Shown one piece after another: positions 42,138-57,540 of a stretch of 64,000 bases of DNA (positions are counted from its first letter, which is position 1; each line of letters opens with the position of its first letter). The DNA is from Desulfosporosinus acididurans (lineage in GTDB: Bacteria > Bacillota > Desulfitobacteriia > Desulfitobacteriales > Desulfitobacteriaceae). The stretch is from positions 1-64,000 of the forward strand of contig NZ_LDZY01000011.1 in NCBI RefSeq assembly GCF_001029285.1, read 5' to 3'. The position numbers and the translations under genes are program-made. The notes under the pieces were generated by a model, which saw only the letters and a program-made list of their open reading frames with translations, was not told the DNA's origin and searched no databases.

Positions 42138-42326
42138 CTACAGAGCCAAGCCCGAGCACGTTAGAGCGAAGGTCTTAATTCTATAATTTTTGGAACTTCT
42201 TAGTTTCTTGATATCAACACGTTGTCCAGCGACAAAATGTTCCAGAGTTAAATACACTCGGTTTCGAGTATCTCTATCAAGTTTCTCCAGATCTTTCTTG
42301 GCACGTGTAGTAATGACTATATTCAC
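42138..42326 (-). pseudogene. RelE/ParE-family toxin, truncated
   Basis: The frame opens like a RelE/StbE mRNA-interferase toxin (MNIVITTRAKKDLEKLDRDTRNRVYL, KKLRSSKNYRIK), but the expected C-terminal strand region with catalytic residues (YRVLYEI and RKDAY-type motifs) is replaced by an unrelated tail (TFALTCSGLAL) after residue 51. The gene overlaps the antitoxin gene by four bases. A deletion or frameshift probably inactivated it; 62 residues compare with about 85-90 in the family. Confidence 0.7.
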
Positions 42327-42580
42327 AAGTCACCCAACTGCCTTTTAATTTCATCTAGACTATGGAGCCTACCAGCAGCAACGTCTTCTTCACCCTGGGC
42401 AATGGAAATCTCATCCTCCTCTGTCAAGTCTTCATCATCGTACAAAGGGTCGCTTAAGGCTTCCTCCATTGTTTGTCCAACAATTGATCTCAAATATTTA
42501 ATTGCCTTTTGTAGTTCCTTAGCATTCATGTTTTTAGTCAGGAACCCAACTTCTTCACGCAATTTGTCTTCTGATAACAC
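42323..42580 (-). CDS. Antitoxin of a RelE/ParE-type toxin-antitoxin pair
   Basis: An 85-residue acidic protein with a helical N-terminus (LREEVGFLTKNMNAKELQKAIKYL) and an acidic C-terminal part (DEDLTEEDEISIAQGEEDVAAGRL), typical of an unstructured toxin-binding tail. It is upstream of, and overlaps by four bases, the truncated toxin frame. A second, frameshifted copy of this gene lies beside the CRISPR array at 45525-45780. Its own upstream region contains an Rpn relic. Confidence 0.7.
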   Translation of the reverse strand: MLSEDKLREEVGFLTKNMNAKELQKAIKYLRSIVGQTMEEALSDPLYDDEDLTEEDEISIAQGEEDVAAGRLHSLDEIKRQLGDL

Positions 42581-42599
42581 ATTATTACCTCCCAGTCGA

Positions 42600-42990
42600 C
42601 AAAAATATTAATACCCGTTGCCAAAACTTTATAAAAGTCTATAAAAGCCTTGTTTACTTCCCTATTCATCATGTCTGATTTTGTCCAAGGACTACTTTCA
42701 TTTGGTGTAACACTCCAAGGGCTTAAATTCCGATGCAACTTAGCTGTGGATTGACCGATTGTTTTTTGTTCCCAAATGTTAAGAATGTATTTCAACAGTT
42801 GGAGGGCTCTCTTAGGAGATGGGTAACTTTTATGCTCAAAAAGAAGGTAAAGGTAACCGTCTTTAATATGAAGCTGTTTGAACGTAATATTTACAGGAGT
42901 AAAAACTCGTCTCCGGGCGGTGTAGCGATCTTAATTTAGCTTGCCCATTATAACGACTGCCTTACCTTAAGTATAGCATGGATGTTTATG
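42600..42990 (-). pseudogene. Rpn/YhgA-like nuclease-transposase relic (N-terminal part)
   Basis: On the minus strand the frame reads VNITFKQLHIKDGYLYLLFEHKSYPSP followed by QLLKYILNIWEQKT, the hallmark core of Rpn/YhgA-like PD-(D/E)XK proteins. It then degenerates into unrelated sequence that overlaps the antitoxin start. No complete reading frame is left. Confidence 0.7.
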
Positions 42991-45456: not shown

Positions 45457-45802
45457 AGTATCTCTATCAAGTTTCTATAGATCTTTCTTGGCACGTGTAG
45501 TAATGACTATATTCATAAGTCACCCAACTGTCTTTTAATTTCATCTAGACTATGGAACCTACCAGCGGCAACGTCTTCTTCACCCTGGGCAATGGAAATC
45601 TCATCCTCCTCTGTCAAGTCTTCATCATCGTACAAAGGGTCACTTAAGGCTTCCTCCATTGTTTGTCCAACATTTGATTTTAAATATTTAATTGCTTTTC
45701 TAATTCCTTAGCATTCATGTTTTTGGTTAGAAATCCAACTTCTTCATGCAATTTGTCTTCTGATAACACATTATTACCTCCCAGTCGACAAAAATATTAA
45801 TG
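45457..45802 (-). repeat. Degenerate second copy of the antitoxin/toxin-start segment
   Basis: About 346 bases are nearly identical to 42267-42613, covering the start of the toxin gene and the whole antitoxin gene on the minus strand. In this copy a small deletion in the antitoxin coding region breaks its frame. The copy ends 48 bases before the CRISPR array. Confidence 0.8.
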
Positions 45803-45849
45803 CCCCTCTTCTATGCTGGCTAATGTAGCCTATTGGCCCAGAAGATCAA

Positions 45850-48800
45850 TTTCAATCCACGCTCCCGTGTAGGGAGCGACTTTACCGTCAAAGCCCGTGT
45901 CTGTCGCCATATTGGTATTTCAATCCACGCTCCCGTGTAGGGAGCGACTATAAAAGTCAACGCTGGGTAAAACCAGATATAATTATTTCAATCCACGCTC
46001 CCGTGTAGGGAGCGACATTATGACATACTTCACCCATACACTATTACAGAGATTTCAATCCACGCTCCCGTGTAGGGAGCGACGGATTTAATGTTGGGTT
46101 AAGCATGAACGGTGTTATTTCAATCCACGCTCCCGTGTAGGGAGCGACACCATGACACTAACGAAAACAAAATTAATGAAACAATTTCAATCCACGCTCC
46201 CGTGTAGGGAGCGACGTCCTATTTTCATCTCTCTCACCTCCCCCTCAATATTTCAATCCACGCTCCCGTGTAGGGAGCGACGTCTTATTAACAATATAAT
46301 TTCCAGCAGGAATAAATTTCAATCCACGCTCCCGTGTAGGGAGCGACTTACTTAGAAAACTTGTTGAAACTGACGATCAAATTTCAATCCACGCTCCCGT
46401 GTAGGGAGCGACAAAATGAAATTAACGGCTATTTATAGGATCGATAATTTCAATCCACGCTCCCGTGTAGGGAGCGACTTTCATCCGAAAGAGAGAATTT
46501 GCTCTTATTCATATTTCAATCCACGCTCCCGTGTAGGGAGCGACGTCAAGATAGATATTTAGGCTGTCATGATAAATGTATTTCAATCCACGCTCCCGTG
46601 TAGGGAGCGACGTATAGTAGGAATGTAGTATGCAAATAAGTTGTATTTCAATCCACGCTCCCGTGTAGGGAGCGACGAGCGAACCATCGACATAAATGTG
46701 CACGCCCAAAATTTCAATCCACGCTCCCGTGTAGGGAGCGACCTAAACACAACAGATACTTTACACAAGACGCAAATTTCAATCCACGCTCCCGTGTAGG
46801 GAGCGACCTTCGTAGCTGATTTCGAAACCACTACCATAGCTATTTCAATCCACGCTCCCGTGTAGGGAGCGACTAATTTTTAATGATTATTGGTGTGATT
46901 AGTGAGATTTCAATCCACGCTCCCGTGTAGGGAGCGACCTGAGTGTTTTGGTTACAATTTCATCAAAATCATTATTTCAATCCACGCTCCCGTGTAGGGA
47001 GCGACGTAATCACTTTGCGCTGGCACCCCAATAAGTCCAATTTCAATCCACGCTCCCGTGTAGGGAGCGACTCCGCATTGCTTCCAACTGCCTTTGACGG
47101 ATTCAAATTTCAATCCACGCTCCCGTGTAGGGAGCGACGCTTCTCTTCTTTAGGGCGGTGATATTATGCCAATTTCAATCCACGCTCCCGTGTAGGGAGC
47201 GACGCTTCTCTTCTTTAGGGCGGTGATATTATGCCAATTTCAATCCACGCTCCCGTGTAGGGAGCGACGTATATAATTCCAGTTTAATCGTGAATGAATC
47301 TCTGATTTCAATCCACGCTCCCGTGTAGGGAGCGACAGTACGTCTTTTAAGACTTTGCTAATCCATCCCGATTTCAATCCACGCTCCCGTGTAGGGAGCG
47401 ACGGGCTTCCACATGGGATTTTTCAACGCCCACATGAATTTCAATCCACGCTCCCGTGTAGGGAGCGACCTCATTCCGAGTCTGCGAATATTGCATAATT
47501 GCAATTTCAATCCACGCTCCCGTGTAGGGAGCGACTGTGCTGGAAACTATTAAACATACTTTATAGGAGATTTCAATCCACGCTCCCGTGTAGGGAGCGA
47601 CAACCCTTTTAGGAGACTAGTTTTTCCGTAGCCAGATTTCAATCCACGCTCCCGTGTAGGGAGCGACATTGGGATGTGGCAAAATTCAAATAAGGGGGTT
47701 GTATTTCAATCCACGCTCCCGTGTAGGGAGCGACCAACGTTGTTGCGGTTATCTTTCTTGACAAGACATTTCAATCCACGCTCCCGTGTAGGGAGCGACT
47801 TGCTAATCAGTTTCACAGAGTTGGCGAGTGCGATTTCAATCCACGCTCCCGTGTAGGGAGCGACTTCCGGCGAAAAAACCTTGCAAATTGTGCATCAATT
47901 TCAATCCACGCTCCCGTGTAGGGAGCGACACACAAGAAACCACTTAGAAAGACTCCTGAGTATATATTTCAATCCACGCTCCCGTGTAGGGAGCGACATG
48001 GCTCGGACGCGGGGTTATCGTACTGGAACCTATTTCAATCCACGCTCCCGTGTAGGGAGCGACTAGGGTGCGTGCTTGCCCTCTTCGGTGGTAACTGATT
48101 TCAATCCACGCTCCCGTGTAGGGAGCGACGATAAAACACCTGTTGTAGTGTCCATGACAAATGATTTCAATCCACGCTCCCGTGTAGGGAGCGACAAAAA
48201 GGTACTGAAGGTAATATTAACTTGGTAGAGATTTCAATCCACGCTCCCGTGTAGGGAGCGACCGATGGATTAAGATTGTAAATTACTACCTGATTATTTC
48301 AATCCACGCTCCCGTGTAGGGAGCGACGCTCCGATGCTCTTGCAATATCACGATAGCCAAATTTCAATCCACGCTCCCGTGTAGGGAGCGACGATCTTAC
48401 AGAGATAGTTAAAGTAAATGACATGGATTTCAATCCACGCTCCCGTGTAGGGAGCGACTAACCTGAGTATATCTAGATGGTCTACTGGGATAATTTCAAT
48501 CCACGCTCCCGTGTAGGGAGCGACAGTCCCTAAGTCATCAGCTAAACTAGATAGACTAATTTCAATCCACGCTCCCGTGTAGGGAGCGACTGAAATGCGA
48601 ACCGAGCTGCAGATGCGTCATTTAATTTCAATCCACGCTCCCGTGTAGGGAGCGACGCTGAAGATGCGGTGGACGTTGGCGGCGAGAGTATTTCAATCCA
48701 CGCTCCCGTGTAGGGAGCGACAAGGGGGCGATTATCATGTAACGCTCTGATTCGGTATTTCAATCCACGCTCCCGTGTAGGGAGCGACAAGTCGATGTTG

Positions 48801-49253
48801 TTAAGACAGCGCCCAGGGGATTATTTCAATCCACGCTCCCGTGTAGGGAGCGACAACCGATTGTGGCGATTGCTGGCGGGATGCTTTAATTTCAATCCAC
48901 GCTCCCGTGTAGGGAGCGACAAATGACGCATCTGCAGCTCGGTTCGCATTTCATAATTTCAATCCACGCTCCCGTGTAGGGAGCGACATGCGCTGGATTA
49001 TGGCGTTCTTTGGTGTTGAGACGATTTCAATCCACGCTCCCGTGTAGGGAGCGACGCGCGGATCCGTTGATCGGGCATTACCCAAAAGGTATTTCAATCC
49101 ACGCTCCCGTGTAGGGAGCGACCGAATGATCATATCTGATGGAAAGGGCGGATGGATTTCAATCCACGCTCCCGTGTAGGGAGCGACATAAATCCAGCGC
49201 AACAGTAGCTTGTGACGTCTGATTTCAATCCACGCTCCCGTGTAGGGAGCGAC
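45850..49253 (-). CRISPR. Type I-C CRISPR array, 52 repeats, 51 spacers
   Basis: By hand count there are 52 copies of a 32-base repeat. On the minus strand it begins GTCGCTCCC and ends GGATTGAAAT, with the CGCTCCC/GGGAGCG hairpin stem typical of type I-C. Spacers are 33-36 bases long. Transcription runs leftwards from the leader beside cas2, so the spacers near 49220 are newest. All repeats look identical, including the distal one. One repeat-spacer unit is tandemly duplicated (47139-47236), and two spacers are reverse complements of one another (48591-48624 and 48921-48955). Confidence 0.99.
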
Positions 49254-49419
49254 GCAAAAATTAACAAAAACTATCTCCTACAAAGCAATTTTTGTCATTA
49301 AACCCCATATAATTACTAATCAAACTTTCTCTCTTCCATATCTCTACATATTTCAACAGATTACTTCTTATCTCGCGGTGCGAATCCCCCAGGGATTTTA
49401 TGTTCGCTTCACATTCGCA
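49254..49419 (-). promoter_or_regulatory. CRISPR leader
   Basis: AT-rich stretch between cas2 and the first repeat on the transcription side of the array, the normal place for the leader and array promoter. GTGCGAAT (49379-49386) and ATTCGCAC (49413-49420) form an inverted repeat directly after the cas2 stop and may terminate the cas transcript or fold in the leader. Confidence 0.75.
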
Positions 49420-49704
49420 CTAAATAATCAAAGTGTCCTCAACATCAAAAGAAGCCTTTACTCCGATATGCTCAACCTTATCCTTGTAATTATTTCCTAG
49501 AAAATAAAACCTCAAGCTATCTTTCTCGATATCAATAATTTTCTCCAATTTGTGCTGTACTTCGCGGAACTTAGCCATCTCCAGCACGCATTCAAAAACC
49601 GAATTTTGAACGCGCTGTCCGTAATTCACACATTGCTTGGCAACCTGACGCAGCCGTTTTCTCCCTGCCGCTGATTGCGTATTTACGTCATACGTGATAA
49701 GCAC
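49420..49704 (-). CDS. cas2: CRISPR-associated protein Cas2
   Basis: A 94-residue ferredoxin-fold protein that pairs with Cas1 to integrate new spacers. It begins LITYDVNT with the conserved Asp near residue 6, continues RLRQVAKQCVNYGQRVQNSVFE and ends in a short beta strand. The start is GTG with AGGTGAG upstream. It is the last cas gene, next to the leader, 16 bases after cas1. Confidence 0.95.
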   Translation of the reverse strand: MLITYDVNTQSAAGRKRLRQVAKQCVNYGQRVQNSVFECVLEMAKFREVQHKLEKIIDIEKDSLRFYFLGNNYKDKVEHIGVKASFDVEDTLII

Positions 49705-49720
49705 TAAAATATTATCTCAC

Positions 49721-50752
49721 CTACTTCCACATAAACGCTGGGTACCCGTCCAAATCCCCCCGGATAAACCGGGCAAGCAACATAGCCTGGGCATAAGGAA
49801 CCAGTCCCCATTCTATTTTTTCCTGCAGAAAGGGATGCCTGATCTCCTCTTGCTTTCTGCTTTGCCATGCTTTAAGAATAGCTTTTCTCGTATCATCGTC
49901 CATAATAACCGCTCCGTTTTCCATCCGGGTAAAGCCCTTGCCATTGATTTCTCTTTTATTGACTAAAGAAATAACAAACCGGTCTGCATAAACTGCCCTC
50001 AGCTCTTCCATCAAATCCAACGCCAAAGAAATCCTTCCTGGCCTGTCCCGGTGTAAAAATCCCACATAGGGGTCTAAACCAACCGTTTCTAAGGCCGCTG
50101 CAGCATCATGGGCCAAAAGGGTATAGACAAAAGACAGCATAGCGTTGACGTTGTCCAGGGGCGGACGTTTATTCCGGGCTTTAAAATAAAAATCATCCTT
50201 TTGCTGAAGAATCAAATCGTCCATTACCCGAAAGTATTGGGCCGCGGCTTCTCCTTCAAATCCCCGCAGCTGCTCTAAATCCTGACTTTTTTCAACCAGC
50301 TTCAAAGCGTTAGCTAGGGTTTGGCAAACTCCTTTTAATTTGTCCACATCCAGCCGAGCCCCATGATCCCTGGTTGCCCGCTCCAATACCCAGCGGGCAT
50401 TGTATATTTTTCCCAGTATAAAGGATTGAGCAATTTTATGGCTCTCCGCCGCATCCTCCGATAATCTGTATTGAGTTTTTCGCAAGGTAACATTGCCTTT
50501 AACTTCGCCAACCACTCTGCCTAGGAATTTTCCGCTGGACTTCATAAAACTCAAGGCGATATTGCGCTGGGCGCAGGCACCCATCAGAGCCGGACTGGCG
50601 CCGGTGTAGCCAAAAGCAATAATACTCTCCAGATTATGCAAGGGAACTCTCAGCGCCTCTGCCTCATCCTTTAAAATGACAATATTTTCACCATCAAGAG
50701 ATAAATACGTATTGGTCGACGTCACATAAAGTGTATTCAATAATTTTCTCAT
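49721..50752 (-). CDS. cas1: CRISPR-associated integrase Cas1 (type I-C)
   Basis: The 343-residue spacer integrase. It has an N-terminal beta domain (NTLYVTSTNTYLSLDGENIVI) and a C-terminal helical catalytic domain with Glu in RGFEGEAAAQYF (near 166), His in VGFLHRDRPGR (near 234) and acidic residues in LALDLMEELR, the metal-binding triad of Cas1. It overlaps the cas4 stop by four bases (ATGA), so both are translated together. Confidence 0.97.
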   Translation of the reverse strand: MRKLLNTLYVTSTNTYLSLDGENIVILKDEAEALRVPLHNLESIIAFGYTGASPALMGACAQRNIALSFMKSSGKFLGRVVGEVKGNVTLRKTQYRLSEDAAESHKIAQSFILGKIYNARWVLERATRDHGARLDVDKLKGVCQTLANALKLVEKSQDLEQLRGFEGEAAAQYFRVMDDLILQQKDDFYFKARNKRPPLDNVNAMLSFVYTLLAHDAAAALETVGLDPYVGFLHRDRPGRISLALDLMEELRAVYADRFVISLVNKREINGKGFTRMENGAVIMDDDTRKAILKAWQSRKQEEIRHPFLQEKIEWGLVPYAQAMLLARFIRGDLDGYPAFMWK

Positions 50753-51420
50753 TGATCAACCTCAATTTCCGCAATAGACTTCTTCATATAAGCCAGAGCC
50801 GAGGGATTTTTATATAGCTTAGGCAGGCAAAGCTCACTGAGGGAACAAGCTTTGCAGCCTTTGGTCGGCTTTACTTTAGGCGTATACCGTCGATCGTACA
50901 ATTCATGCATCTCTCTGCAAATAGTCGTTACCTGTTCCCGGATCTCCTCGTCAAGCAGCACTTTAAGCCTACGTTTAGGTTCCTCATAGAACAGAAACCC
51001 TTCGGGAATTGTACACAAAAGCATTTCTTCCAGGCACATAGCCTGAGCGCATAATTGCAGGACGTCTACATTATTCTGCTTGGGCTTGCCTCGTTTATAC
51101 TCTACAGGAATCGGCTTGTACCTTACCTCTCGACCAAAAAGAGTGACTCCGTCCCGGGCCTTGTGGAACTCCACCACATCACAAGCCCCGGTAATCCCTA
51201 AGGTACGTGAAAAGATTCCCATGCCCCGGGATATGATCAAATCTCCCCTCTTTTCCTTGATGGTATTGTCATGAGTTTTCTCGTGCAGGATTTCGCCCTC
51301 AACTGTGCGCAAATTCTCCTGCCACTGCTGTTCGATATGGATTAAAGCCCACTGTCGTTTGCAGAAAGCGAAATGCTGTATTCCGGACAGAAGCAGGAAA
51401 TCTTCTTCATCATACTCCAT
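50749..51420 (-). CDS. cas4: CRISPR-associated exonuclease Cas4
   Basis: A 223-residue PD-(D/E)XK nuclease with a [4Fe-4S] cluster that selects PAM-flanked prespacers. It has the N-terminal Cys in FAFCKRQWAL, catalytic GDLIISRGM/GACDVVEF and PVEYKRGKPK segments, and the C-terminal cysteines in GCKACSLSELCLP. GGAGGTTTTTA precedes the ATG. It starts a cas4-cas1-cas2 adaptation block separated from cas3 by 257 non-coding bases, in which I see no gene but which may hold a separate promoter. Confidence 0.96.
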   Translation of the reverse strand: MEYDEEDFLLLSGIQHFAFCKRQWALIHIEQQWQENLRTVEGEILHEKTHDNTIKEKRGDLIISRGMGIFSRTLGITGACDVVEFHKARDGVTLFGREVRYKPIPVEYKRGKPKQNNVDVLQLCAQAMCLEEMLLCTIPEGFLFYEEPKRRLKVLLDEEIREQVTTICREMHELYDRRYTPKVKPTKGCKACSLSELCLPKLYKNPSALAYMKKSIAEIEVDQ

Positions 51421-51677: not shown

Positions 51678-53870
51678 TCAAATGATGATTGCTTCTCCTT
51701 TATACTTTTTTAATTTCACGATGCCGGCCATATAACCAAGAAAACAGTCGTATTCGAGATTCCACCTGTATATATAATCCATGATCATGGGCGTTCTCAA
51801 TTCGTCCAACTTATATTTGGCAATTTGAACTGAGACTTTCTGCAATTCTTTCCAATCGACTTTTCCATATTGCAAGCGCTTTGCCACAGCCGGATCAACA
51901 ACGACGAGACGGGTATTGCTGTCAATCACCTTGAAATCCTGTTCCACCTGAGGAAATCTTTTCAATTTCTCAGCGGTGACTAAATTTTCATGTTTTTTAG
52001 ATAACCCATATAAAGCAATTTCATCAGCAAGGGATTGGGTACTCAATTCAGGCATAATGGTTTTGTTCTCTTCAAAATACCCTTTGAGAACAGCAGCAGC
52101 CTCCTTTAAACCTGGATTGAGCCTTAACAATCCGTCTTCCAAAATACAAAATGTCCACATTCCCGCATCATCAAGGAGGCCCTCCCGATTAACACGCCCC
52201 GAAACTTGCAGCAGCGATACCAGCGATCCAAGTTCGCGGAATCCATTTCTGAAAGACAGATCTACTCCGGCTTCAATACACGACGTTGCAATCAGAATCC
52301 AATTAGTGTCCTCTTTATCAGCCAAGCGTTCTTTAACTCGTTTAAGGGTGTTTTCCCGATCGTTTACGATCAATGCCGTAGACAAATGCTCGACATACTC
52401 TCGGCCAAAGTGTTCTGAAAAATAGTCCGCTAATACGGCAGCGCTTTGAACCGTGTTCAAGATAACCAGTCTCGGACCCGGAAACTTGTTGATCCACTCA
52501 GCAAGCTCCGCTATGCCTTTAGGAGATAAATCGCTATGATAAGAAATTCGGTTGTTTTCATAGACCGCAAGGCGCTTGCGCAGTTCGTTAGAGATGATTT
52601 CCGGTACAGAGTGGGAATTTTCGGTGCCGGCAATTTCCGGGATTGTCCAGTATCGATTCAGTGAACCGGAGGCCAGAACCCAGTAGCAACTCCATTCCGC
52701 AGCATAAATGTTAATCCACTTCCAGGCAATAGGCAGAAGTTTAGCCGGCAAAGCAGCATGGGATTCATCCACAAAAACGGCACTGCCGGGCAATTCATGC
52801 AATCGGCGCAGAGTTGAGGTAGAATTCGAGGCCAGCGTTTCAAAAAAAGCAACTGCCGTTGTGACAATAATTGGTGCCCGCCAAAGTGCGGTCATATGTC
52901 TGGCATCTTCGGATTCAAAGTCCGCCCGATGGTGCATCTCCGCTACAACCTCATCAGCCTTTTCCCCCGGCAAAACGAGAGCCTTCCGATAGATATCAAC
53001 GGATTGTTTAATGATATTCGTAAAGGGCAATACAACAAAGATGCGCCGTAGTCTGCGCTTTTCCGCTTGGGCAAGCAAATGAGCCATAACCGCCGTCGTC
53101 TTTCCAGAGCCAACCGGACTGTCACAGGAGGTTATGTCGACGTTAATGTCGGCATCTCGACAAGCAAAATACATCTCATTGCGCAGAGCGTTCCGATCAT
53201 CGTCGGTTCCTTTCTTCTTTAGCCCTGCAATATGCCGGTCTAATTGGTCAAGCCGTTCGGCGGCGCGCAATTTAACCGGACTCATTTCGGCTGGATACTG
53301 CTGATAATGAATCGCTGTATCGGTGTGATCAGCATCAGCGAGGCAGGATAAGAGCATCCGCAAGAAAACCGAAGGATCTCCTTTGATTTCCTCCCCACCG
53401 TAGTCAAAATGGCTATCAATGAGGTCGTTGTGGATTGCCTGCAATTCCGGCAGCTCTCTATCTACATCCAAAGCAATGGAACTATCCCGAAAAATCGCCT
53501 TATCACCCTTATCCATTTCGACAGTAAAATCAGGAAAGCCAATGTGGTGAGCCTGGATTACAGCGGCGGAATAAGCCGAAAAGTGTTTGTTATTCAAAAA
53601 ATAAGCGACTCCTGCATCTACGTGATTATACGGAAGAGATTTTGATGATGTTTTCCCGGCAAGTACATCCTGATTTTCGTGGTTCAGTTTGCCTAAATCA
53701 TGAAACGTGGAGGCTTTTTCCGTTATCCCTGATAGCAGTGTTTTGTCACAATTTGCATAACAGCTTATATCCTGGACATATTCCTGGGTAAGCGACCTGA
53801 CACCACGAATATGTGCCAAGTACTCCTGCTCAGGAATATCATTTTTTTTACTGTGCGCGTAATAAATCAT
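51678..53870 (-). CDS. cas3: CRISPR-associated helicase-nuclease Cas3
   Basis: The 730-residue effector nuclease that degrades DNA bound by Cascade. The N-terminal HD nuclease domain shows KASTFHDLGKLNHE and AVIQAHHIGFPDF. The helicase part has Walker A SPVGSGKTTAVMAHL, the DEAH-type VFVDESHAALP and motif VI-like VSGRVNREG. It overlaps cas7 by four bases. In most type I-C loci cas3 is the first gene, before cas5; here it follows cas7. Length is normal and both active sites appear intact. Confidence 0.95.
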   Translation of the reverse strand: MIYYAHSKKNDIPEQEYLAHIRGVRSLTQEYVQDISCYANCDKTLLSGITEKASTFHDLGKLNHENQDVLAGKTSSKSLPYNHVDAGVAYFLNNKHFSAYSAAVIQAHHIGFPDFTVEMDKGDKAIFRDSSIALDVDRELPELQAIHNDLIDSHFDYGGEEIKGDPSVFLRMLLSCLADADHTDTAIHYQQYPAEMSPVKLRAAERLDQLDRHIAGLKKKGTDDDRNALRNEMYFACRDADINVDITSCDSPVGSGKTTAVMAHLLAQAEKRRLRRIFVVLPFTNIIKQSVDIYRKALVLPGEKADEVVAEMHHRADFESEDARHMTALWRAPIIVTTAVAFFETLASNSTSTLRRLHELPGSAVFVDESHAALPAKLLPIAWKWINIYAAEWSCYWVLASGSLNRYWTIPEIAGTENSHSVPEIISNELRKRLAVYENNRISYHSDLSPKGIAELAEWINKFPGPRLVILNTVQSAAVLADYFSEHFGREYVEHLSTALIVNDRENTLKRVKERLADKEDTNWILIATSCIEAGVDLSFRNGFRELGSLVSLLQVSGRVNREGLLDDAGMWTFCILEDGLLRLNPGLKEAAAVLKGYFEENKTIMPELSTQSLADEIALYGLSKKHENLVTAEKLKRFPQVEQDFKVIDSNTRLVVVDPAVAKRLQYGKVDWKELQKVSVQIAKYKLDELRTPMIMDYIYRWNLEYDCFLGYMAGIVKLKKYKGEAIII

Positions 53871-54751
53871 ACCAACATCAGGTCGCTTACAGAACTCACC
53901 TTAGCCTGCAATTCTTCCGGCAGAGCAGTCTTATCCTCATAATCATCCCAGTTCATGGACGCAATGGTTGCCTCGCCAATACGCTTTGGCGTAAGCGTTT
54001 CTAAAAGAAGATAATCTGGACAACTGCCAAGGGCGTTCAGATGCTCAATATACCAAGCATGACGAATGCGCACATCAGTGCGAATGGCGGAACGATTCAA
54101 ATCATAAGCCCTAGGAATTAAAAGTTTAAGCAAGTCAATATCTTCCTGCATGCAGCCGGTTTTGGCAGCATAATTGGGATTCACAAAAAACGGCATACAG
54201 TAAACGCCGTGTTCCACGATTCGGAAAGCCAAAGGAGCCATCCCCCCTTGTTTATCCTCTTGTACGCCGGCTTTTTTGGTATTTGTATGACGTATAACAT
54301 TGACTGGCGAAATAGATACCCCCACACCAAATTGAACAACCCCCGTTTTGATAAATCCTTTATTAGCCCCTTTTTCTAAAAAAGTATTGCCAAAGACCCG
54401 AGCATCCCAATATTTTTGTACAAAAGTACTTTCTAAGAATTTCTTCTGATCAAAGTTTTTTACATCATTAGACATCTCACCTGTAATAGACTTCAAGTCA
54501 CGGCCGCGGGACTCCAATATGCTGTATCGCTCTGAATTGTTTACATAGGTCTCTGGAAGGCTTTGAAAAAATAAGCTGTCGTGATCCTCCACTAAATCGC
54601 GCAGCTTACGTTTAAAGGAAACAGGTGAAATTTCACCCAGACCATTGGGACGCTGGCGAGGATCGCTCTCTCTGTCTGGATCGCCGTTCGCATTTGAGTT
54701 TACAACTTCAATGACCAAAAGACCGGTTGCGCGCCTAATTTCAGTGTTCAT
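53867..54751 (-). CDS. cas7: CRISPR-associated protein Cas7 (type I-C, Csd2)
   Basis: The 294-residue backbone subunit of the type I-C Cascade that coats crRNA. It starts with the RAMP-like segment RATGLLVIEVVNSNANGDPDRESDPRQR, followed by SPVSFKRKLRDLVED, and contains VQFGVGVSISPVNVIRHTNT typical of Csd2. It overlaps cas8c by 11 bases and cas3 by four, so the effector genes form one transcript. Several copies are expected per Cascade complex. Confidence 0.96.
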   Translation of the reverse strand: MNTEIRRATGLLVIEVVNSNANGDPDRESDPRQRPNGLGEISPVSFKRKLRDLVEDHDSLFFQSLPETYVNNSERYSILESRGRDLKSITGEMSNDVKNFDQKKFLESTFVQKYWDARVFGNTFLEKGANKGFIKTGVVQFGVGVSISPVNVIRHTNTKKAGVQEDKQGGMAPLAFRIVEHGVYCMPFFVNPNYAAKTGCMQEDIDLLKLLIPRAYDLNRSAIRTDVRIRHAWYIEHLNALGSCPDYLLLETLTPKRIGEATIASMNWDDYEDKTALPEELQAKVSSVSDLMLV

Positions 54752-56870
54752 GCTTGACTCCTCCTATACTATTATCATTAACGTTGTCGTCAGCGCTTGC
54801 TGTTACTGAAGACTCTCTTTTGGGAAACGATGCCAGATAACCAATAAAAAGCTGTGCTTTATCAAAATCATTGAAACGTGTTACATCCCCCATCGCAGGA
54901 TACAATTTGTTTGCCACATCTTCATATAAACGAAGAAGCCAGCCGGCTATCCTAGTCCCCTCATTTTTTGTTTTGTCCTTAAAGCGATATTGTTTGGCCC
55001 AGGTTATATAGGGATTCATACGAAGAGACAATTGAGCCATGGCCTGATAGGGCGTTTCCCCGGCTGTAGCAAACAACGCACTGCCCACCAGCTGTGGAGG
55101 AACATCCCCGCGTACAACGTTACAGTACAAGGTATGCAGTTCGTCGGAGATTTTCAAAAGCTGTCCGACTAAATAAGCCATACTTTCCATGTAATTCTCC
55201 TTTCTAGCACCCCGTTTATAAAGTAGCAGCCCAAGAACAGACAACAGAAAAACCGTTTCATTCTTTAATTTATCTAGAGCTCTTTCCTCTGTCTTGTCCT
55301 TGCATTTTGAACCGCCATGCACCCAGTTACCAACATAGCTTACCAGCCCGGATGAATGGGTAAGTACGATATGTAGGTAATTGCCTATCATACTTTCCTG
55401 CATAAGATCAAGAAGCAATTCCATTCCCTGATAATATTTCATTCGTTCAACGGCAGTCTTGCCTTGCGCCAATTCCCCGTTTTGTTTCCAGACATTGTTG
55501 ACGATTTTTGCCACTTGTAGCGGGAAAGGACTTTTTCTCTCACCTAGATCTGTTTCTGGCGCGTTACGGCAGCCGGCCATCCATTCCTCCGCCGCTTGAA
55601 TCAGCTGGTCCGGCGAACAATTTCGAGTAAAGATCACCTTTGAACGAGCTTTGTCCAGTTTGCGGATTGTGAATATCTGAATAAAATCCGACTTCTCCTT
55701 CGTCGGAAGACCTTTGAGCGTCCTAATAAAATCTTTGGCATTGTTTTCAAAACGTGCTTCCGACTGGGCGGAGCTTTCAGCTTGACTGGTACCAAAAATT
55801 GAAGCAAATCTTGGCGAAGTTTCCGACAACTTGGAAGGGTAAACAAATATGATTTCGTTCTTATCGATTTTTCGCCAAGTAATACCCTCCCGCTCCAAGC
55901 CTGCAACCCATTCCAATGATTTTTTGGCGAAAGAACGATTTTCCAGGGCAATTGGATAGGAAGCATCATCTATCTGCTCATAACGATACTGACAAGGCTG
56001 TCCACTGAACATTGAACGCAAGATTACATCAAAGCCATTGAGTTTCACGCTTGGCATAGGTTCATTTGGGTTAACAAAGGGAAGCCCAAATGCGTCAATG
56101 CCAACAACCTCGGACTGTTTAGATATAGTCAGCAAGCTGGATTCCAACAGCCTATCGTTAATCCATTCGGTGGCGTGTTGGCTTGTTACGGGATAGCCAT
56201 ACTGTTGCCATTCAAACAAATCCAAAACAACTGAAATTGATACACCAGTATCAGCGTTATGATTTTTCTGTGGGTTACCTTTATGGAATAGCATAGCAAG
56301 CAGAATGCCTATGTCCTCTTGTTTTTGAAGCTTCGCGAAAACGCATTTTTCCAGTGCGGACTTGAAACTTCTATTAGGCTCGTTTGTGAAACCATCCGCT
56401 AAACGAATTAATTCTGAAACGAGAGTTCGTTCAGGTTGTTCTTGATTTCCAATTAAATCTGAAAGGGTCTGGGAAATATTATGCAAGCTTCTATCAACTT
56501 TTTTGACAATACTTTCTTTCCAATTGTCATTAACACACCATGATTTAATTTTGTCTAAATCGGGGGGGATACTACCCTTTTCAATTTGTTCCAACTCGGA
56601 AAGTTGTTCTTTTTCGGTGATACGGTATAGGGGAACAATATTGAAAGCAGGAAAGGTTCCTTGATTGTTCCCGTATTTTCTCAGTAACTGGGCAAGCTCT
56701 GCACTTATGCTCTCAATTCCACGAACCGAGCCGTCCCGGGCAAGCCATATTCGTATACAGGGTGCTTTGGCAGTAACCTTGGGTAAGGGTTTATATTCTC
56801 TATGCCATTCCCTGGTGCTAATTCCTTTATTCTTTAAAGCAGCAGACAAACTATACAATTCATTGAGCAT
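54741..56870 (-). CDS. cas8c: CRISPR-associated protein Cas8c (Csd1)
   Basis: The 709-residue large subunit of type I-C Cascade, which recognises the PAM. In this family an internal start also gives a small Cas11-like subunit from the C-terminus. Typical segments are CIRIWLARDGSVRGIESI near the N-terminus and LAQLSLRMNPYITWAKQYRF and GWLLRLYEDVANKLYP near the end. The ATG at 56868-56870 overlaps cas5 by 11 bases and follows AAAGGGAGTGAAAACT; an upstream reading of 28 residues inside cas5 is a shadow. I cannot pick the internal start with certainty. Confidence 0.94.
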   Translation of the reverse strand: MLNELYSLSAALKNKGISTREWHREYKPLPKVTAKAPCIRIWLARDGSVRGIESISAELAQLLRKYGNNQGTFPAFNIVPLYRITEKEQLSELEQIEKGSIPPDLDKIKSWCVNDNWKESIVKKVDRSLHNISQTLSDLIGNQEQPERTLVSELIRLADGFTNEPNRSFKSALEKCVFAKLQKQEDIGILLAMLFHKGNPQKNHNADTGVSISVVLDLFEWQQYGYPVTSQHATEWINDRLLESSLLTISKQSEVVGIDAFGLPFVNPNEPMPSVKLNGFDVILRSMFSGQPCQYRYEQIDDASYPIALENRSFAKKSLEWVAGLEREGITWRKIDKNEIIFVYPSKLSETSPRFASIFGTSQAESSAQSEARFENNAKDFIRTLKGLPTKEKSDFIQIFTIRKLDKARSKVIFTRNCSPDQLIQAAEEWMAGCRNAPETDLGERKSPFPLQVAKIVNNVWKQNGELAQGKTAVERMKYYQGMELLLDLMQESMIGNYLHIVLTHSSGLVSYVGNWVHGGSKCKDKTEERALDKLKNETVFLLSVLGLLLYKRGARKENYMESMAYLVGQLLKISDELHTLYCNVVRGDVPPQLVGSALFATAGETPYQAMAQLSLRMNPYITWAKQYRFKDKTKNEGTRIAGWLLRLYEDVANKLYPAMGDVTRFNDFDKAQLFIGYLASFPKRESSVTASADDNVNDNSIGGVKHEH

Positions 56871-57540
56871 AGTTTTCACTCCCTTTAGGGTACTCCAGCA
56901 CGCCGTTTTGAATGACAAGGTTATTGTCGTACACATAGGAAACCGGAGAAGCATATCCTTTGGAAAAAACCTGTCTTAACATGGATGGTATAATTACGGG
57001 GAGCGCATCGGACATCACCTGTGTTGTGTCCCGAAATTCGCCAAAATAGGAGGGCGTAAATTCTCTCCACCCCAATGAGGGAATGGAATAGCACTGACCT
57101 CGTTTAAGTCTTCTTTCAAAAATACTTTGATAAGCATGGCCGGGTGAGGTCGTTTTTTTATCCCATTGCACGGCTCTTTCCGGCAATCTGCTTTTTTCTT
57201 TATTGGGAATAACTTCTGCATACAGTCTATAACAGACATCAATTAACACGGTGGCATACAACTGATAATTATTTCCGTCTTTAATTGATTTAGGATTTCG
57301 CAAAGGTCCTCCATAGTTAGTGCAATAAGAGTGGTATTGTATGGGAGCACACAACTCCACTTTTGCAGGGATTATTTCTACATCCGGCCCCCATAAGACG
57401 GATTCAAAAATAGCCTTGGCTGCAGAATATGTTGGTGCTGGATAGCTGACCGGACAGTCACCGCAATCCGGTCTTGTCCACATTGCGTTGTTGCCGGCTA
57501 TCTCCATTGCAATAGGATAAGACAATCGTACCACGAACAT
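56860..57540 (-). CDS. cas5c: CRISPR-associated protein Cas5c (crRNA-processing)
   Basis: A 226-residue RAMP-fold protein that in type I-C takes the place of Cas6, cutting pre-crRNA and holding the 5' handle. It has the family segments SYPAPTYSAAKAIFESVLWGPDVEIIP and CTNYGGPLRNP, and IPSLGWREFTPSYFGEFRD near the C-terminus. GAGGATGTTCG precedes the start. It is the first gene of the cas operon here. A near-perfect palindrome lies upstream (57636-57677). Confidence 0.94.
   Translation of the reverse strand: MFVVRLSYPIAMEIAGNNAMWTRPDCGDCPVSYPAPTYSAAKAIFESVLWGPDVEIIPAKVELCAPIQYHSYCTNYGGPLRNPKSIKDGNNYQLYATVLIDVCYRLYAEVIPNKEKSRLPERAVQWDKKTTSPGHAYQSIFERRLKRGQCYSIPSLGWREFTPSYFGEFRDTTQVMSDALPVIIPSMLRQVFSKGYASPVSYVYDNNLVIQNGVLEYPKGSENYAQ

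Follow-up and report, generated by a model that had tools for sequence, protein, structure and literature searches.

An inverted spacer pair in a type I-C CRISPR array of Desulfosporosinus acididurans and its probable origin from a site with two PAMs

Two spacers in the type I-C CRISPR array of Desulfosporosinus acididurans, S5 and S10, are exact reverse complements of each other over 33 nucleotides. Our analysis indicates that they probably represent two independent acquisitions, each in the correct orientation, from the two strands of a single site with a PAM on each side; the two PAMs and the shared element are what we infer from the sequences, the order and the end geometry of the spacers. 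The array and its cas genes are located in a window of 64,000 nucleotides, the whole stretch of DNA that was analysed (contig NZ_LDZY01000011.1, positions 1 to 64,000), and their coordinates are listed in Table 1.

Table 1. Coordinates of the array, the leader region, the mirrored spacers and the cas genes in the window.
Feature	Positions	Strand	Description
Type I-C CRISPR array	45849..49253	minus	52 identical 32-nt repeats, 51 spacers
Spacer S10 (older)	48591..48624	minus	34 nt, TAAATGACGCATCTGCAGCTCGGTTCGCATTTCA in transcript sense
Spacer S5 (younger)	48921..48955	minus	35 nt, TATGAAATGCGAACCGAGCTGCAGATGCGTCATTT in transcript sense
Leader region	49254..49419	minus	between first repeat and cas2
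cas2	49420..49704	minus	TIGR01573, 1.8e-18
cas1, type I-C	49721..50752	minus	TIGR03640, 3.8e-149
cas4	50749..51420	minus	TIGR00372, 7.4e-34
cas3 (HD + helicase)	51678..53870	minus	PADLOC Cas3c, 2.6e-99
cas7	53867..54751	minus	Pfam Cas_Cas7, 4.4e-53; TIGR02589 Csd2 under cut-off
cas8c, divergent	54741..56954	minus	PADLOC PDLC01562 Cas8c, 2.7e-245
cas5c	56860..57540	minus	PADLOC Cas5c, 2.6e-25; TIGR01876 under cut-off

The array, its leader and the cas operon

The repeat, GTCGCTCCCTACACGGGAGCGTGGATTGAAAT in transcript sense, is a type I-C repeat and ends with GTGGATTGAAAY, as expected of this subtype. The spacers are 33 to 36 nt long (n = 51), and no second array with the same repeat was found elsewhere in the genome. 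Because the gap between cas2 and the array resembles the leaders of most of the related arrays compared (75–87% identity), we placed the leader at the high-coordinate end and numbered the spacers from there. S5 is thereby the younger, leader-proximal copy, in agreement with the first-pass annotation.

All seven type I-C genes are present and are co-oriented with the array transcript in the order cas5-cas8c-cas7-cas3-cas4-cas1-cas2, from position 57540 to 49420. The usual gene order in type I-C systems is cas3-5-8c-7-4-1-2, which is typical but not obligatory, and the operon departs from it in that cas3 is placed between cas7 and cas4 (51678-57540). Furthermore, the Cas8c protein had no match in the Pfam or NCBIfam profile searches. 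The subtype nevertheless stands despite the variant gene order because of the Cas8c signature gene and the match to type I-C Cas1, and the earlier assignment to type I-C is correct.

Some other features of the array and its surroundings were also recorded. The adjacent spacers S31 (47204-47236) and S32 (47139-47171) are identical and represent a duplication of the repeat-spacer unit. Spacers of the index array hardly ever start with a G (1/51; 27/248 in arrays of the same variant; p = 1e-5), so that the PAM end has a base preference. S1-S10 have a mean GC content of 0.51, and S11-S51 have one of 0.39 (uncorrected Mann-Whitney p = 4e-4). We considered a single GC-richer invader starting at S10, for which there is only a hint; since the change point that fits the array best is at spacer 34, a single element behind the spacers around S5 and S10 is not established. 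Finally, two copies of a block of about 350 bp are located 3.19 kb apart at 42267-42616 and 45457-45805 (93–95% identity), and only about 45 bp separate the end of the second copy from the leader-distal end of the array.

Spacer geometry and the survey of type I-C arrays

The complementary block, which covers positions 48591-48623 in S10 and 48921-48953 in S5, is 100% reverse complementary, and the ends of the pair differ by 2 nt on one side and by 1 nt on the other. This confirms the coordinates and the offsets of one to two bases reported in the first-pass annotation, and its proposal that one protospacer was recorded in both orientations holds at the sequence level. The next-longest match in opposite orientation between any two spacers of the array is 11 nt, and about 1e-16 matches of 33 nt are expected by chance; a chance origin of the complementarity is excluded.

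The PAM end of a type I-C spacer is its 5' end. Both S5 and S10, with the common lengths of 35 and 34 nt, fit into one union of 36 bp, TATGAAATGCGAACCGAGCTGCAGATGCGTCATTTA. S5 ends one base before the far end of this union, and S10, on the other strand, ends two bases before the opposite end. It is the 5' ends of the two spacers that are outermost, and the pair is ragged at the 3' (distal) ends only, with offsets of 2 and 1.

We surveyed 110 I-C arrays with 2290 spacers (index array included), gathered by the repeat pattern in public genomes and by fetching related loci. Non-identical spacers that derive in the same orientation from one site, or nearly so, were identified in 22 pairs, one of which has an offset of 6 and is better read as a neighbouring site. 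Among the 21 near-complete pairs, the 5' (PAM) end has an offset of 0 in 19, while the remaining two, both of which contain one same spacer, are shifted by one base; the 3' ends of the 21 pairs are spread from -3 to +3. Thus, when a spacer is re-acquired in an I-C array, its PAM end is fixed to the base, and only its distal end is variable. This rule was derived from arrays without any target, and it agrees with in vitro work in which purified I-C Cas4-Cas1-Cas2 was found to cut exactly at the PAM (PMC6519985).

The first-pass annotation had proposed a survey of I-C arrays for pairs in opposite orientation. Two partial pairs were identified, one in an Omnitrophota MAG (L137, 28 nt) and one in Marinobacter (L040, 19 nt), with the PAM (5') ends facing outwards in both, but there was no other near-complete pair in the 110 arrays and 2290 spacers. 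The same-orientation re-captures number about 27 if the 21 pairs are taken together with 6 identical pairs of non-adjacent spacers, part of which could have arisen by block duplication. We estimate that a GAA occurs by chance at any of the 4-6 allowed spacings at about 6–9% of TTC sites and that about 2 opposite pairs are expected, with which the finding of zero outside the index case is compatible; the index array was left out of the rate because it was selected for having the pair.

Candidate PAM, target and origin of the pair

The canonical PAM of type I-C systems is TTC, as found for 20/22 new spacers (PMC5071653) and as also given in PMC8406640, and PAMs differ among I-C systems (PMC8482600). 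Two overlaps between spacers bear on the PAM used here. In a genome with the same Cas8c variant (G016, L200/L201), TTC is located before the inner of two overlapping spacers, in a single overlap with 20/22 matched, and TTC likewise precedes an overlapping spacer in L122. Four matches that resemble diverged targets, with 3 to 6 mismatches, give a mixed picture: they have TGC, TCA, TCT and TCC at positions -3 to -1, and in two of these TTC is found one base farther out. Overall, TTC is the likely PAM of this system, with some doubt about the exact PAM because the Cas8c effector is divergent. In another array (L082), a same-strand overlap between spacers 24 and 32 (0-based) places TTT before the inner spacer and TTC one base on, a pattern like that left when a TTC PAM is missed by one base. 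S22 of the index array matches the chromosome of a relative (L159, G035:C1:5445000-5459000) at 30/33 bases; the match is preceded by TGC and may represent a prophage target that has diverged.

With TTC as the PAM, the target is predicted to read 5'-TTC-TATGAAATGCGAACCGAGCTGCAGATGCGTCATTTA-GAA-3', i.e. TTC-36 bp-GAA, such that TTC would stand before TATGAAATG and GAA after CATTTA. Exact and coding-degenerate patterns of S5 and S10 recovered no protospacer from viral contigs, nor did the degenerate patterns from genome contigs, and no match with up to 3 mismatches was found when 73 genomes from the order and 398 from the phylum were searched. Likewise, a search of the whole array against phages, plasmids and 29 genomes of the genus gave no protospacer for the pair, the 36-nt union had chance-level matches only in phages and plasmids, and the sequence of S5 and S10 is absent elsewhere in its own genome. 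The coding-degenerate patterns of S4, S3, S9 and S2 gave nothing in viral contigs, and no targets were found for the partial pairs in L137 and L040. The first-pass annotation had argued that, if the I-C PAM TTC applies, the target must carry a PAM on both sides; since no protospacer was found in the viral, phage, plasmid and genome collections, the word “must” is too strong and the dual PAM stays a prediction.

We favor the hypothesis that S5 and S10 were acquired independently, each in its correct orientation, from the two strands of one site with two PAMs, and consider this to be the probable origin of the pair. Only if there was a PAM on both sides do S5 and S10 both obey the rule of the exact PAM end. 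The host would have met a mobile element and stored S10 first, and S5 would have been stored later from the opposite strand, five integration events apart and with four other spacers in between. In both cases, Cas4-Cas1-Cas2 would have fixed the PAM end of the spacer exactly, and the spacer would have been integrated in its normal, functional orientation, so that the crRNAs of S5 and S10 would target opposite strands of the 36 bp. In type I systems, pieces of the target are set free during both interference and priming, and interference or priming guided by S10 may have helped to bring in S5. That S10 caused the acquisition of S5 is nevertheless only something we infer, since in an earlier study (PMC5071653) new spacers were not enriched around the site of priming. 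S5 matches positions 2-34 of S10 exactly, and the target thus had no seed escape from S10 at these positions; any escape could have been located only in the PAM or at position 1. One argument against an origin from a site with two PAMs is the expected rarity of such sites, only about 1 in 64 for a mirrored PAM at a given spacing.

The differences of 1-2 nt between the ends of S5 and S10 could also have arisen by flipped integration, in which there was a single PAM and one prespacer was inserted backwards, resulting in a spacer unable to guide interference. In E. coli type I-E, flipped spacers were reportedly documented by Shmakov in 2014, as cited in PMC5059440. Flipping is documented in type I-F as well, where it becomes more frequent with slips of 2 nt or more (PMC5059440), and the positional base composition of S10 leans weakly in this direction (-0.93 nats, within the spread). 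Scoring of the end composition did not separate the forward from the flipped orientation. However, flipped integration makes up less than 0.5% of the acquisitions in wild-type I-F (PMC5059440), and a flipped spacer is non-functional and hence without selective support. With the PAM at the S5 side it would furthermore require a slip of 2 nt, and with the PAM at the S10 side one of 1 nt, although 19/21 of the re-acquired I-C pairs have no offset at this end. Flip and slip are two rarer steps, although partly coupled, and while flipping is possible, we consider it an unlikely source of this pair.

One spacer could alternatively have been derived from the other inside the array, by recombination, inversion or self-acquisition from the locus. 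Unit duplication does happen here, as exemplified by S31 and S32, but all 52 repeats keep one single orientation, and both spacers have bases past the shared block that differ from the repeat beside the other copy. These bases are TA in S5, with AC beside S10 in the array, and T in S10, with C beside S5. Simple copying within the array is disfavoured by these mismatches, and an origin inside the array is very improbable. An artefact of the assembly, a draft of 47 contigs with a repeat-rich region at this locus, is scarcely credible, since a misjoin would not explain how an exact reverse complement came to lie between intact repeats with new bases at its ends, and the array, the leader and the cas genes are contiguous on one contig of 181.6 kb.

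Precedents and possible consequences

Given the precedents in E. coli, in type I-F and in the type I-C system of Legionella, S5 and S10 provide an uncommon natural example rather than a new phenomenon. Spacers in the opposite (“flipped”) orientation have been described for I-F adaptation in P. atrosepticum (Staals 2016, PMC5059440), and both there and in E. coli I-E, one protospacer region gives rise to both orientations, as for S5 and S10. However, the flips in these systems are mainly single-PAM errors in deep-sequenced pools, whereas S5 and S10 are two fixed spacers in a natural I-C array with an end geometry that fits two PAMs. In Legionella pneumophila I-C, overlapping spacers against LME-1 were attributed to natural priming (Rao 2016, PMC5071653), and these resemble S5 and S10 in that an older and a younger spacer in an I-C array fall on overlapping sites. 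In Legionella the element is known (LME-1) and there are mismatches to the older spacer in the PAM or the seed, whereas S5 and S10 overlap almost completely and in inverted orientation, with no mutation at positions 2-8 of the seed of S10.

The pair represents a natural I-C case in which the fidelity of orientation can be read from the end geometry alone. It is most likely an ordinary trace of repeated infection, and we find it quite improbable that it was retained as useful, or is costly through annealing between the crRNAs. The two crRNAs have their seeds at opposite ends of one 36-bp site and would, as expected from type I systems, launch Cas3 outwards in both directions; if the pair is useful, it would be in that no single PAM or seed mutation evades both. 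If there is a cost, it might lie in annealing between the complementary crRNAs of S5 and S10. When the fold of the pre-crRNA is predicted, S5 and S10 pair in a single stem of about 34 bp that spans five repeats, with z = -9.75, to which the repeat hairpins contribute in that they alone already lower the energy.

Within the family, at least six further genomes carry the same Cas8c variant (69–86% identity; G016, G021, G035, G040, G041 and G003), with similar leaders and repeats where these were compared. No mirrored pair was found in the surveyed arrays of five of these genomes, and no array was found in the stretch fetched from G003. The Cas8c homologue in G003 (L166, G003:C6:73097-75289) is open but for one in-frame TAG, which perhaps marks a pseudogene or a read-through codon.
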